From positions 36,624 through 100,623 of the IMG/VR virus record IMGVR_UViG_3300013233_000195: a stretch of DNA of 64,000 bases; one strand, written 5' to 3'. This document shows positions 6,872-21,543 of this stretch, piece after piece. The notes beneath the pieces were generated by a model. It was not told the origin of the DNA, ran no database searches, and saw nothing but the letters and a program-made list of their open reading frames with translations. Every line of letters starts with the position of its first letter. Within the stretch, counting starts at the first letter, position 1. Position numbers and translations under genes: made by a program. This DNA is from a virus.

Positions 6872-7033
6872 CTACCTTCCTTCCATGCGCCGACAATCGG
6901 CGCGCTTGCGGGCCCTCACGGTCCCTACGATAGGGACCATGAACAACCCGATCAATCCTAGCAGGCTACAACCCACTAGTGCCACGACTACGCCGCCCCT
7001 TGCGCCGTCGCCGTGGACTAGTGCATAGTCCAT
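6872..7033 (-). CDS. Small membrane protein
   Basis: About 53 aa from ATG 7033; an upstream TTG at 7060 would add nine residues. One strong hydrophobic segment (GVVVALVGCSLLGLIGLFMVPIVG) is followed by a basic tail (RARKRADCRR), predicting an inner-membrane protein with a cytoplasmic C-terminus. Its stop lies just before the ribosome-binding site of the next gene. No sigma70 promoter was recognised upstream; the four-copy 15-bp motif array lies about 320 bp upstream. Confidence 0.45.
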   Translation of the reverse strand: MDYALVHGDGARGGVVVALVGCSLLGLIGLFMVPIVGTVRARKRADCRRMEGR

Positions 7034-7060
7034 GCCAGACTCTATCCCGTTGATTTTCAA

Positions 7061-8035
7061 CGACTTAGGTTTTCGCCGATCCGTCGATCCGTCAAGCCCA
7101 CCGACACCATCCCGACGGCCAAAACGGCGTAACTCGTTGTCACGTAAGGAGTTAGGCCATTTTCGACCAGCGTAAAGAATTCCGTCAACGGTAAAATCGA
7201 CCGAAACTCGGAAACGCCGAATTCAGCCCCTACAGGCCGAATACGCCCATTCTGCGGTAGGTCCAGAATTATCGAAAGATTCCGTCGATCTGGCCTAACT
7301 TGAGAAAAATCAACGGGTTACGAGGTTCCAGGTTTCGGCTGGCGGATCGGACGGTTTGGCACGATTCTTGCTCAAATCTCGAGGGTTTTTTTTGGCACGA
7401 TTCTTGCTCTGGCACGATTCTTGCTCTGGCACGATTCTTGCTCAACGGCCAAATGATAATAGATTCCCATTCTCAACCCCCCCCATGCTAAACATATCTA
7501 TAGTGTATTCTATACTGTATATTGCTTATCTTATTTCTAATCTTATATTCCAATCCAGTCTTCTAATATTCCAGCCAGTTATTAGTATTCTATTCCGATC
7601 TCCCCAATTTCTTGTTAGAATGGGGCCAAAATCGACTAGAATTTCTTATATTGATAGTATGAGCCCAATACAGTCAATATAGCGTTTTTCACCTCCCCAA
7701 AATGCGTATATTGATAGATAGCTGGGATTATTCCTAAAGGAAACGCACTTTAGCCTTTTCAGAACCGCTATAATCTTTGTATTTCACAGGGGATAATATC
7801 AGGCTAATAACAGTATTATTTATCGCCACAATCAACCGATTTCGGTTGCCATCGCCAGTAAGGCGTCTAGCTTGCGCTCTAAGCGATTTTCATCTTTGGG
7901 GATGCCTGGAGTACCCTATTCGACGATCGTCGATCCTGACGCAATTCAGGGCCGTTCCCGTCGATTCTCCGCCCGTGATCGGGACGCAATTCCCGATTCC
8001 GGGAATCTGGACGCGATACCACAATATGAATATAC
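7061..8035. other. Gene-free control region, candidate origin
   Basis: No convincing ORF on either strand for almost 1 kb. The first 300 bp are GC-rich, then comes the array of four 15-bp motifs (7357-7441), then an AT-rich stretch (about 7480-7770). The stretch contains TATATTGATAG at 7650 and 7705 and an inverted TCAATATA. Direct repeats beside AT-rich DNA are typical of replication origins or complex control regions. No DnaA-box consensus was recognised. Origin function is inferred from architecture only. Confidence 0.4.
7357..7441 (+). promoter_or_regulatory. Array of four sigma54-consensus-like motifs
   Basis: Four exact copies of TGGCACGATTCTTGC lie at 7357-7371, 7393-7407, 7410-7424 and 7427-7441; the last three have a 17-bp period. 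Each contains GG-N10-GC and matches the bacterial sigma54 -24/-12 consensus (TGGCACG-N4-TTGC) at every fixed position, pointing right. All nearby genes point left, so the sites could instead be iterons or operators for a phage protein. Three more exact copies occur near leftward promoters. Confidence 0.6.
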
Positions 8036-8073
8036 AAAAAAAATAGGCGCTAGGAGGAATCCCCTAGCACCTA
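8036..8073 (-). terminator. Rho-independent terminator
   Basis: On the minus strand a stem-loop (AGGTGCTAGG paired with CCTAGCGCCT, small mismatches) is followed by eight T residues. It lies downstream of the leftward operon ending at 8095 and marks the left end of the small-gene block. Confidence 0.8.
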
Positions 8074-8078
8074 TTACT

Positions 8079-8106
8079 ATAGAAGACTAGATTACTAGTC
8101 TTCTAT
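8079..8106. repeat. 12-bp inverted repeat spanning a stop codon
   Basis: ATAGAAGACTAG and its exact complement surround the loop ATTA. The right arm contains the end and stop codon of the gene at 8095. With the adjacent terminator it may stabilise the mRNA 3' end. Confidence 0.6.
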
Positions 8107-8250
8107 CCTCCTGTAGGAAAAGCACGCGCAAAGCTCCTCAGGATCATACGACTCTCTGTATCTCTTTGCAAGAGCCAGAGCTTCCCTGTGCGTGTCCACA
8201 ATCCCGATCCGGATTTCCCCATCTGGGACTTCCATATAGACTTCAATCAT
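8095..8250 (-). CDS. Small hypothetical protein
   Basis: 51 aa. GGAGGAGGAAGAAG precedes ATG 8250, so the longer upstream frame was rejected. Sequence MIEVYMEVPDGEIRIGIVDT then an alanine-rich helix suggests a small alpha/beta fold. It overlaps the preceding gene by 8 bp and is the last gene of its operon. Confidence 0.6.
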   Translation of the reverse strand: MIEVYMEVPDGEIRIGIVDTHREALALAKRYRESYDPEELCACFSYRRIED

Positions 8251-9284: not shown

Positions 9285-9314
9285 AGTATCGACCCGGACC
9301 CGGGGGCCGGTCAA
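9285..9314 (-). promoter_or_regulatory. Sigma70-like promoter (weaker)
   Basis: Minus strand TTGACC (9309-9314), 18-bp GC-rich spacer and GATACT (9285-9290). It is less perfect than the other promoters in the window. It sits 70 bp before the start of the five-gene operon 9215-8095. Confidence 0.5.
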
Positions 9315-9316
9315 GC

Positions 9317-9336
9317 TTGTAAAAACTTTTTTACAA
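9317..9336. promoter_or_regulatory. Palindromic operator-like site
   Basis: TTGTAAAAA and TTTTTACAA arms around a 2-bp centre form a 20-bp palindrome directly upstream of the -35 box of the promoter at 9285. The position fits an activator or repressor dimer site. Confidence 0.5.
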
Positions 9337-9346
9337 TCGGCCCGGC

Positions 9347-9361
9347 TGGCACGATTCTTGC
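9347..9361 (+). promoter_or_regulatory. 15-bp GG-N10-GC motif, copy 5
   Basis: Exact copy of TGGCACGATTCTTGC, 32 bp upstream of the -35 of the leftward promoter at 9309. If it were a sigma54 promoter it would fire rightward, antisense to the 9684 gene. Confidence 0.6.
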
Positions 9362-9449
9362 GGGGCCGGCCAGATGGCCTACTGAACAAACGTATAGTAA
9401 AATTTGAAAATCCTTTTTATTGATTGATTTTTTCCCCTTCCGCTGTTTA

Positions 9450-9657
9450 TCTTATAATCTCTTTTATATCGCCTAGCTTATCTTATGGGGGATTTCTTAT
9501 CGGGTGTCTTATCTCTAATGAGGCTTCATATCGGCTATCTTATTCTATCATGCTTGACTCTTATCTTATCGGGGCTCTTATAGTGGTTTATATCTTATAA
9601 TGGAATTCTTATCGGGTGTCTTATAATAAAAAAGGGGATAAGAGCTTTCGCTCTTAT
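9450..9657. repeat. Twelve TCTTAT hexamers in about 200 bp
   Basis: TCTTAT occurs at 9450, 9481, 9495, 9507, 9538, 9559, 9564, 9576, 9593, 9607, 9619 and 9652. The block TCTTATCGGGTGTCTTAT is present twice (9495 and 9607). No gene is seen between 9216 and 9683. The density is far above expectation and suggests a clustered binding site; the last copy lies in a terminator stem. Confidence 0.6.
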
Positions 9658-9661
9658 CCCC
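9628..9661 (-). terminator. Strong rho-independent terminator
   Basis: Minus-strand stem GGGGATAAGAGC / GCTCTTATCCCC with a GAAA tetraloop is followed by six T residues. It ends the leftward operon whose last gene stops at 9684. Confidence 0.9.
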
Positions 9662-9683
9662 TGTGAGAGAAGAAAGGCTTATA

Positions 9684-12374: not shown

Positions 12375-12396
12375 TCTTGGGGACTTTCCCCTAGCG
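12375..12396 (-). promoter_or_regulatory. Leader hairpin shared with 15043 promoter
   Basis: On the minus strand the early transcript contains GCGCTAGGGGAAAGTCCCCAAG, with GGGGA/TCCCC forming a small hairpin. The same segment follows the promoter at 15043-15071, so the two leaders are copies. Confidence 0.6.
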
Positions 12397-12401
12397 CTTG
12401 C

Positions 12402-12430
12402 ATTATACCATGGCGAGACGTGGCTGTCAA
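12402..12430 (-). promoter_or_regulatory. Consensus sigma70 promoter
   Basis: Minus strand TTGACA (12425-12430), 17-bp spacer, TATAAT (12402-12407) with the extended -10 TGG. It drives the leftward operon 12365-9684. A CGAATTTCG-type palindrome and the 15-bp motif lie upstream. Confidence 0.9.
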
Positions 12431-12450: not shown

Positions 12451-12465
12451 TGGCACGATTCTTGC
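12451..12465 (+). promoter_or_regulatory. 15-bp GG-N10-GC motif, copy 6
   Basis: Exact TGGCACGATTCTTGC, 20 bp upstream of the -35 of the promoter at 12425. The same spacing is kept at the 15043 promoter, supporting an activator or operator role on the leftward promoter. Confidence 0.65.
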
Positions 12466-15014: not shown

Positions 15015-15036
15015 GCTTGGGGACTTTCCCCTAGCG
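15015..15036 (-). promoter_or_regulatory. Leader hairpin, second copy
   Basis: Same GCGCTAGGGGAAAGTCCCCAAG leader segment as at 12375-12396, directly downstream of the promoter at 15043. Confidence 0.6.
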
Positions 15037-15042
15037 CCTATA

Positions 15043-15071
15043 ATTATACCACGGCGGAGATCGGGTGTCAA
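15043..15071 (-). promoter_or_regulatory. Consensus sigma70 promoter
   Basis: Minus strand TTGACA (15066-15071), 17-bp spacer, TATAAT (15043-15048), extended -10 TGG. It drives the operon 14988-12565. Flanking sequence on both sides is duplicated at the 12402 promoter. Confidence 0.9.
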
Positions 15072-15091: not shown

Positions 15092-15106
15092 TGGCACGAT
15101 TCTTGC
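15092..15106 (+). promoter_or_regulatory. 15-bp GG-N10-GC motif, copy 7
   Basis: Exact TGGCACGATTCTTGC, again 20 bp upstream of the leftward -35 box. Confidence 0.65.
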
Positions 15107-15125: not shown

Positions 15126-15166
15126 CAAAAAAATAGCCTAAAGGATATGGAAATCCTTTAGGCTAT
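15126..15166 (-). terminator. Strong rho-independent terminator
   Basis: Minus-strand 14-bp perfect stem (ATAGCCTAAAGGAT and complement) with a 6-base loop, followed by a run of T. It ends the operon whose last gene stops at 15232. Confidence 0.9.
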
Positions 15167-15178
15167 TATAAAACGAAT

Positions 15179-20457: not shown

Positions 20458-21543
20458 CTAGAATGGGGGACGAACTGCCATAGCCTTCCGAATAGTCAAT
20501 CCCAGGTAGTAGTCGCTATCATGGTGTGTCCTAGCCTTTCCGTGTGAGTAATTCCACAGGATTGTGGCTATCTCAGCTACAGTGAAGCGATTTTTAGCTA
20601 GGAAGGCAGCTAAAGCGTAGTCAAGACCTGAACGAGAGTGATCTGCTTTCTGCGTTGTATTCCCAAGCCACAGTTGGCGCACTCTTTCATTACGAAGTAG
20701 CTCTAAAGAGAACCTAGCAGGAAGCTGTGCTTCCTTATAATCTCCCAGAGTAAAGTCAACTCCCTCAATAGTACGAAAGTTACTACTCTGTATATTTTCA
20801 ACAGAGATTTTGGTAACTTCATCCATCATGAGAGAAAGTCTACCATCCCAAGGTTGAAGGATCTTAGCCATTCTGTGGGGGCGCTCTGGAGTATTCTCTC
20901 CTTTGATGCAGAGAGTCCCAGGAATCTTTACAATTCGGGCAAGATCGTAGACATTATCAATATTAATCCTAAACTTATGTTCCCACTTACTTCTTAGCTG
21001 ATCCTCCCACACCATTAACTGTTTGGTAATCTCTTCTCTCTTATTGGGTTCAATCTTGTAATGATGCACAGGGAACCAGGGATAGGCTCCATTTCCAGAG
21101 CTAATAATGGGATTGTTCTCATCCTTGGCAATCTCTTGAGCAGCTCTAATTGCCTGTAGGTGCTCTGCTTCTGTTGCCGCACAATTTCCACAGTTGGGCC
21201 TTTTGGCATCTATGTCAAGAGACAGGTTAGAAATCCACTCAATGTCAGTAGAACGTCCTCCCCGGCAAATGTCTTCCTTATGGAAGGAAATCCTATTTCT
21301 TAGATTGGGAGTGACAATAGCCTTTGGTCTTGCATTTCTTCCTGCGTAGAGATTATACTTTCCAGCAAGCTCTGCTAGAGCATCTACAAAAGCATCTTCG
21401 GACACAAAGAAACCCAACCCAATGTGTGGGCCAAAGCGCTCCTTTGGATTGATTGCTCGGACCTCTGTACATGACTGTGGGAGTTCATGGTGTCCCAAGA
21501 GCTTCCAAAAGGCTCTGACATCCTTTTCATTAAACTTTTCCAT
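20458..21543 (-). CDS. PrimPol-type primase (AEP superfamily)
   Basis: 361 aa. The archaeo-eukaryotic primase core shows the catalytic D-x-D as LSLDIDAKRP (D110, D112), the SGNGAYPWFP motif (about 149-157) and the late motif RIVKIPGT (203-210). The C-terminal 80 residues (TQKADHSRSGLDYALAAFL onward) resemble a PriCT-type helical extension. It probably synthesises primers for phage DNA replication. No helicase domain is fused. The gene overlaps the metallopeptidase-like gene by 14 bp. Confidence 0.8.
   Translation of the reverse strand: MEKFNEKDVRAFWKLLGHHELPQSCTEVRAINPKERFGPHIGLGFFVSEDAFVDALAELAGKYNLYAGRNARPKAIVTPNLRNRISFHKEDICRGGRSTDIEWISNLSLDIDAKRPNCGNCAATEAEHLQAIRAAQEIAKDENNPIISSGNGAYPWFPVHHYKIEPNKREEITKQLMVWEDQLRSKWEHKFRINIDNVYDLARIVKIPGTLCIKGENTPERPHRMAKILQPWDGRLSLMMDEVTKISVENIQSSNFRTIEGVDFTLGDYKEAQLPARFSLELLRNERVRQLWLGNTTQKADHSRSGLDYALAAFLAKNRFTVAEIATILWNYSHGKARTHHDSDYYLGLTIRKAMAVRPPF

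Follow-up and report, generated by a model that had tools for sequence, protein, structure and literature searches.

Intergenic arrays of sigma54-consensus sites in an environmental phage: putative docking sites for the host sigma54 holoenzyme

Why would a phage carry several perfect copies of a bacterial sigma54 (RpoN) promoter element that are not followed by any gene to be transcribed? The question is raised by the virus record IMGVR_UViG_3300013233_000195, of which positions C1:36624-100623, a stretch of 64,000 nt called the window below, were analysed within the 100,623-bp record. Coordinates are window positions unless marked as record positions. A sequence-only reading of this DNA had described four exact copies of the 15-mer TGGCACGATTCTTGC, three of them at a 17-bp period and all directed rightward, and had proposed three functions for them: sigma54 promoters of a primer or small RNA, a decoy for host sigma54, or iterons bound by a phage initiator.

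Seven exact copies and their surroundings

The four copies are where they had been described and have the reported period and direction, but the count was too low, as three more exact copies are found as single sites farther to the right (Table 1). All seven copies lie on the + strand of the window. There are no others in the whole 100,623-bp record, where the reversed-pattern control of TGGCACGATTCTTGC gave no match at all. A search permitting up to three mismatches to the 15-mer found 11 matches in the window against a mean of 1.64 in shuffled sequences, with none of the 100 shuffles reaching 11, and base composition predicts 0.04 occurrences of TGGCACG-N4-TTGC in the record. The number of exact copies, the shuffles and the compositional expectation together reject a chance repeat. 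A coding repeat is rejected as well, because the copies are intergenic, all seven being located in intergenic gaps or at operon boundaries. Each of them contains the GG-N10-GC core, as had been claimed for the first four, within the TGGCACG-N4-TTGC consensus, and the N4 spacer is identical in all the copies of this phage. After TTGC, the four array copies continue with T and the three single ones with G.

Table 1. Window coordinates of the sigma54-consensus sites and of the neighbouring features
Feature	Position	Strand	Details
Sigma54-consensus site 1, array	7357..7371	+	T-TGGCACGATTCTTGC-T; exact match; 1st of 41 when ranked with E. coli ChIP-seq sites
Sigma54-consensus site 2, array	7393..7407	+	Exact match; 1st of 41
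Sigma54-consensus site 3, array	7410..7424	+	Exact match; 17-bp period; 1st of 41
Sigma54-consensus site 4, array	7427..7441	+	Exact match; 17-bp period; 1st of 41
Single sigma54-consensus site	9347..9361	+	Exact match; 32 bp from -35 of a back-to-back sigma70 promoter (leftward)
Single sigma54-consensus site	12451..12465	+	Exact match; 20 bp upstream of -35 of leftward sigma70 promoter
Single sigma54-consensus site	15092..15106	+	Exact match; 20 bp upstream of -35 of leftward sigma70 promoter
Gene-free region with array	7034..8094		1061 bp
Sigma70-like promoter	9285..9314	-	TTGACC-18-GATACT, 9/12
Sigma70 promoter	12402..12430	-	TTGACA-17-TATAAT, extended TG, 12/12
Sigma70 promoter	15043..15071	-	TTGACA-17-TATAAT, extended TG, 12/12
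Terminator closing the operon right of the gene-free region	8042..8075	-	15 pairs, T run
Terminator, probably for the operon transcribed from 12402	9633..9662	-	
Terminator immediately upstream of the single site at 15092	15132..15167	-	Lacks a rightward T run

The record encodes a family A DNA polymerase, a DnaB helicase, a UvsX-like recombinase, an SbcC-like nuclease subunit, a ribonucleotide reductase, a head protein and an endolysin; 35 tRNA genes are clustered on the - strand of the window between 22046 and 34668. No close relatives were found in IMG/VR using either the DNA polymerase or a gene adjoining one of the sites, and the DNA polymerases of isolates are only distantly related to that of the phage (<60% identity). 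The genes are directed rightward up to about 6.0 kb of the window and leftward from 6.2 kb (6191) to its end. The sites are found in the left portion of this leftward half, surrounded by small genes of which most have no family match, and all seven point rightward, in opposition to these genes.

The earlier statement that no rightward gene follows the array holds. With the genes running leftward from 6191, the + strand ORFs after the array matched no PHROG family, and the Rfam search revealed no family at its gathering score. Likewise, no convincing rightward terminator was found after the array and no clear promoter immediately to the left of it. The AT-rich stretch that was said to follow the array does exceed the window in AT content, but the excess is mild (58% over the 589 bp at 7442-8030 versus 54%). 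A C9 tract is located after the array at approximately 7478-7486.

All three single sites are paired with a leftward sigma70 promoter at an operon boundary, a back-to-back geometry that the sequence-only reading had not noted. The promoter modules at 12402 and 15043 constitute a duplicated 79-bp repeat with 81% identity, and both are directly followed by the same 22-nt leader, which contains a GGGGA/TCCCC hairpin (12376-12397 and 15016-15037). The palindrome TTGTAAAAACTTTTTTACAA at 9317-9336, between the -35 element and the leftmost single site, holds TGTAAA-N6-TTTACA, which has the shape of a TyrR box. Just to the right of the same site, the gene-free stretch 9440-9655 contains about 12 TCTTAT / CTTATC repeats with a spacing of about 31 bp. 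A second class of sigma70 promoters, at record positions 20550(+), 56812(-) and 63443(-), carries GGGGGGTTGACR a short distance before the true -35 and lacks TGGCACGATTCTTGC.

Sigma54 identity of the sites and similar arrays in other phages

The match to the sigma54 -24/-12 consensus was assessed with a scoring matrix based on 40 sigma54 sites mapped by ChIP-seq in E. coli (table in PMC4591121). On this E. coli matrix, the array copies ranked 1st of 41 and the single copies 2nd. Since the spacer does not vary among the seven copies, this phage taken alone would fit the site of any protein or a recent duplication, and the identification is based on the perfect consensus together with population evidence from other phages. 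Base preferences were compared at positions that the search had not fixed. A pyrimidine precedes TGG in 0.85 of the phage sites and 0.69 of the E. coli sites, and A or T follows TTGC in 0.88 and 0.89, respectively. Position 7 is A in 0.49 versus 0.51 and position 9 is T in 0.60 versus 0.49; a part of the phage set was anchored on the 15-mer, which raises the spacer bases A, T, T and C and leaves the flanking positions unbiased. The E. coli matrix and these unselected positions support the assignment of the TGGCACGATTCTTGC copies to sigma54-type sites, as had been suggested from the consensus. The G found in place of A or T after TTGC in the single copies weakens it.

Within the arrays of other phages, all nine anchor bases are intact in 383 sites and one is changed in 34, a ratio that is somewhat inflated because the arrays were chosen for intact sites. 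The single changes are mostly at positions 0, 3, 4 and 11, which are also variable in the E. coli sites. Meanwhile, the pairwise identity of spacers and flanks between array copies is only about 0.3-0.55. Conserved contact bases amid drifted spacers and flanks point to purifying selection on the -24/-12 sigma54 contacts in the related arrays.

No gene for sigma54 or a sigma54 activator was found in the phage itself. Sigma54_activat and Sigma54_DBD domains were detected neither in this record nor in 40 other records bearing arrays or the 15-mer; a phage-encoded sigma54 or activator was rejected on these grounds.

The exact 15-mer is present in at least 120 IMG/VR stretches, some of them by chance. 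Near it, TGGC-N7-TTGC occurs 12.2 times per 10 kb, compared with 1.2 farther off and 0-0.4 for control patterns. An array scan, defined as two TGGCAYR-N4-TTGCW sites within 30 bp with no selection on the spacer, found paired sites in at least 120 IMG/VR stretches versus 6 with a control pattern in which the same bases were permuted. The same pairs were found in 99 stretches within 257 Gb of bacterial and archaeal genomes. In 40 whole records bearing arrays or the 15-mer, there are 188 single-site matches and none to the reversed pattern. The phage arrays comprise up to nine sites at close spacing, often in both orientations, and many of them alternate in orientation at 18-25 bp, mixed orientations being seen at spacings of 19-28 bp; the phasing of the sites on the helix peaks at 25-28 bp and is suggestive only. 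It seems that arrays of putative sigma54 sites are a widespread phage phenomenon, which the sequence-only reading, confined to one window, had overlooked.

A single TerL family is common to 57 of the 152 array loci, the others having no such terminase nearby. This makes it unlikely that the binding protein belongs to one terminase lineage; arrays spread over phages that do not share a terminase are better explained by a host factor. Searches with DNA and with the small-terminase protein revealed no isolate phage with similar arrays, and a 19-bp match in an Aeromonas phage, located inside an annotated small gene, was set aside as looking like chance. In the literature searched, there was no report of sigma54 arrays or sigma54 decoys in phages; the lack of an isolate with terminase-linked arrays may be the reason.

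Some of the bacterial entries deserve mention. The bacterial genome of Rhodoplanes tepidamans (L271) contains four exact sigma54-consensus copies at the 17-bp period seen in the window. In the Chitinophagales MAG JAIXLO01 (L254, L256, L298), a 383-kb contig has 13 sigma54-consensus sites in 8 kb, and another contig has further clusters of sites; this may be mobile or viral DNA.

Other short words accompany the arrays in related phages. Perfect DnaA boxes (TTATCCACA) reach 4.18 per 10 kb near the arrays and 0.09 far from them, about a 46-fold difference, with boxes at 17 of the 142 loci. Tracts of six or more G reach 17.1 versus 2.8 per 10 kb, about sixfold. On the strength of these two excesses, some of the related array regions may be origins or may capture more than one host factor. 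Clusters of DnaA boxes stand beside arrays at, for example, L136 (10.0-10.5 kb), L157, L010 and L030, and G/C homopolymer tracts are seen by arrays at L158, L126, L132 and L185, as at 7478-7486 of the window. The words GGGGAGGGG or GGGGCGGGG adjoin arrays at 24-25 loci. Palindrome-like words around TTGACATGTG / CACTTGTCA were also noticed by arrays and are possibly sites of another regulator.

Docking sites, operators, promoters or iterons

Orientation relative to genes was counted for arrays with sites in the same orientation and both flanking genes in one direction, with genes taken from a simple ORF method. Phage arrays are directed against the genes in 14 cases and along them in 3, whereas the tandem sites of bacteria show 2 and 17 (Fisher p 2.5e-5). 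The median distance to the following co-directional gene is 324 bp in phages versus 99.5 bp in bacteria. A co-directional gene or RNA downstream, which would mark a sigma54 promoter, was not found in the studied phage. What is expected of a decoy was found: several consensus sites, of high affinity as far as the score indicates, located in non-coding DNA and not aimed at the neighbouring genes.

The best explanation appears to be that the seven sites are putative docking sites for the host sigma54 holoenzyme (E-sigma54), not promoters of phage genes, and act as a sponge or parking array. We put it forward tentatively, at slightly below an even chance. Without an activator, closed complexes of E-sigma54 persist in a stable, silent state (PMC3844500), and regulators of E. 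coli can be titrated with decoy DNA (PMC7826281). On the phage sites, host E-sigma54 would form such a stable closed complex, from which transcription starts only by the action of an activator ATPase. As the phage does not appear to supply one, the complex would open only if an activator of the host acted on it. The sites are placed in gene-free operon boundaries and face away from the neighbouring sigma70 promoters; sigma70 transcription of the phage genes would be left untouched. Their number would grow with the replication of phage DNA, and the soaking up or parking of the sigma54 holoenzyme would starve the host sigma54 regulon, which in many hosts would comprise nitrogen, stress, pili and flagella functions. 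Binding, silence, titration and benefit to the phage are what we infer from the DNA. Among the three functions proposed earlier, the decoy fits best, given the apparently silent arrays, the lack of an activator gene and sites that are not aimed at genes; promoters of a primer or small RNA and iterons of a phage initiator fit poorly.

Two considerations count against a sponge. Seven sites per genome would make a small one unless the copy number is high, and three sites with a spacing of only 17 bp are probably too close for each to hold a full holoenzyme simultaneously.

The consistent placement of sites upstream of sigma70 promoters hints at a role in cis and argues against a pure sponge. The main rival is accordingly a set of cis-regulatory operators, at which a bound regulator, either the host sigma54 holoenzyme or a protein with a very similar site, would raise, lower or insulate the adjacent leftward sigma70 promoters. 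The array would then act on the last leftward unit, and the 15-mer would mark a small regulon of small-gene operons. The three single copies, each 20 or 32 bp upstream of a -35 in an arrangement resembling that of stoperators, speak for such operators, as does the lack of TGGCACGATTCTTGC at the five remaining strong sigma70 promoters in the record. On the -24 side of sites in general, strong sigma70 promoters are back-to-back with the site in 36 cases and in the opposite orientation in 13. The back-to-back geometry recurs in nine unrelated phage loci (L178, L140, L200, L011, L029, L066, L108, L117 and L008), where the -35 is mostly 16-60 bp from the site, and L178 has a pair of sites at each of several leftward operons. 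However, both 20-bp cases belong to one duplicated module, the array has no clear promoter just to its left, and no DNA-binding phage regulator was recognised among the small genes tested, most of which lack any family. The variable distances (from 16 to more than 60 bp) and the mixed orientations of arrays in other phages argue against a pure operator. We consider the operators rather unlikely as the explanation; local action in cis and a sponge are not mutually exclusive.

Real sigma54 promoters, from which antisense or small RNAs would be read rightward once an activator of the host is switched on, are improbable. Their -24/-12 elements are perfect, the single-copy sites of other phages are more promoter-like (36 along the flanking genes, 19 against), and 181 of the 241 sites in terminase-linked arrays point away from the terminase gene, towards a divergent operon. 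However, every site in this phage is opposed to the genes, and the array is followed by no rightward gene, Rfam RNA or convincing terminator. Neither the 17-bp tandem spacing nor the alternating orientations in relatives are promoter-like, and co-directional genes lie much farther from the phage sites than from the bacterial ones.

Least probable, with little in its favour beyond repeats arranged in tandem at 17 bp within 1 kb of gene-free DNA, the mildly AT-rich stretch beside them, the C9 tract, and the DnaA boxes and G tracts near related arrays, is an origin with iterons for a phage initiator (possibly joined by host DnaA in related phages), because 6900-8200 contains no DnaA box, the neighbouring genes match no initiator family, relatives conserve exactly the sigma54 contacts with orientation and spacing free, and an initiator leaves unexplained both the three distant copies at sigma70 promoters and the sigma54-like consensus shared by unrelated phages.

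Returning to the sponge or parking array, a more general form of it can be suggested. Many unrelated environmental phages may have had near-perfect sigma54 docking arrays, sometimes with DnaA boxes, selected as sponges for transcription (and replication) factors, a suggestion that we regard as plausible and still short of probable. The same reading would make the arrays a DNA-based device of host takeover targeting an alternative sigma factor, which is offered with equal caution. If true, plain DNA instead of a protein would disable or hold in place a global regulator of the host, which governs nitrogen use, the response to envelope stress and, in a large number of hosts, also the pili and flagella serving as phage receptors. 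Effects on superinfection and host shut-off would be explained without an inhibitor gene. The arrays would also mark by sequence the phages whose hosts possess sigma54 and could serve as tools, in the form of off-the-shelf sigma54 sponges.

Comparison with known systems

The phage sites share with bacterial sigma54 promoters the GG-N10-GC core, the TGGCACG-N4-TTGC consensus and the pyrimidine before the core, and their scores equal those of the best E. coli sites. They differ in being repeated up to nine times, often in both orientations, and, in this phage, in having neither a following gene nor a phage activator gene.

The datA locus of E. coli is a cluster of decoy sites for DnaA. In synthetic decoy plasmids, high-affinity sites are clustered in non-coding DNA of a multicopy molecule and can titrate a regulator (PMC7826281); the phage arrays would resemble them in this. 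The difference from both is that the putative target of the phage DNA is an alternative sigma factor or its holoenzyme.

Proteins of other phages, namely T7 Gp2, T7 Ocr and SPO1 Gp44, block host RNA polymerase (PMC3778932, PMC7064336, PMC8208478). Interference with the host transcription machinery would be the common feature; the agents there are proteins, while the candidate agent here is DNA itself and would be specific to sigma54.

The stoperators of mycobacteriophage L5 are short asymmetric intergenic sites that have a fixed orientation relative to transcription and are bound by the phage repressor. The sites described here are likewise short, asymmetric, intergenic and fixed in orientation relative to transcription. 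They differ from stoperators in sequence, match the consensus of a host sigma factor and occur in unrelated phages.
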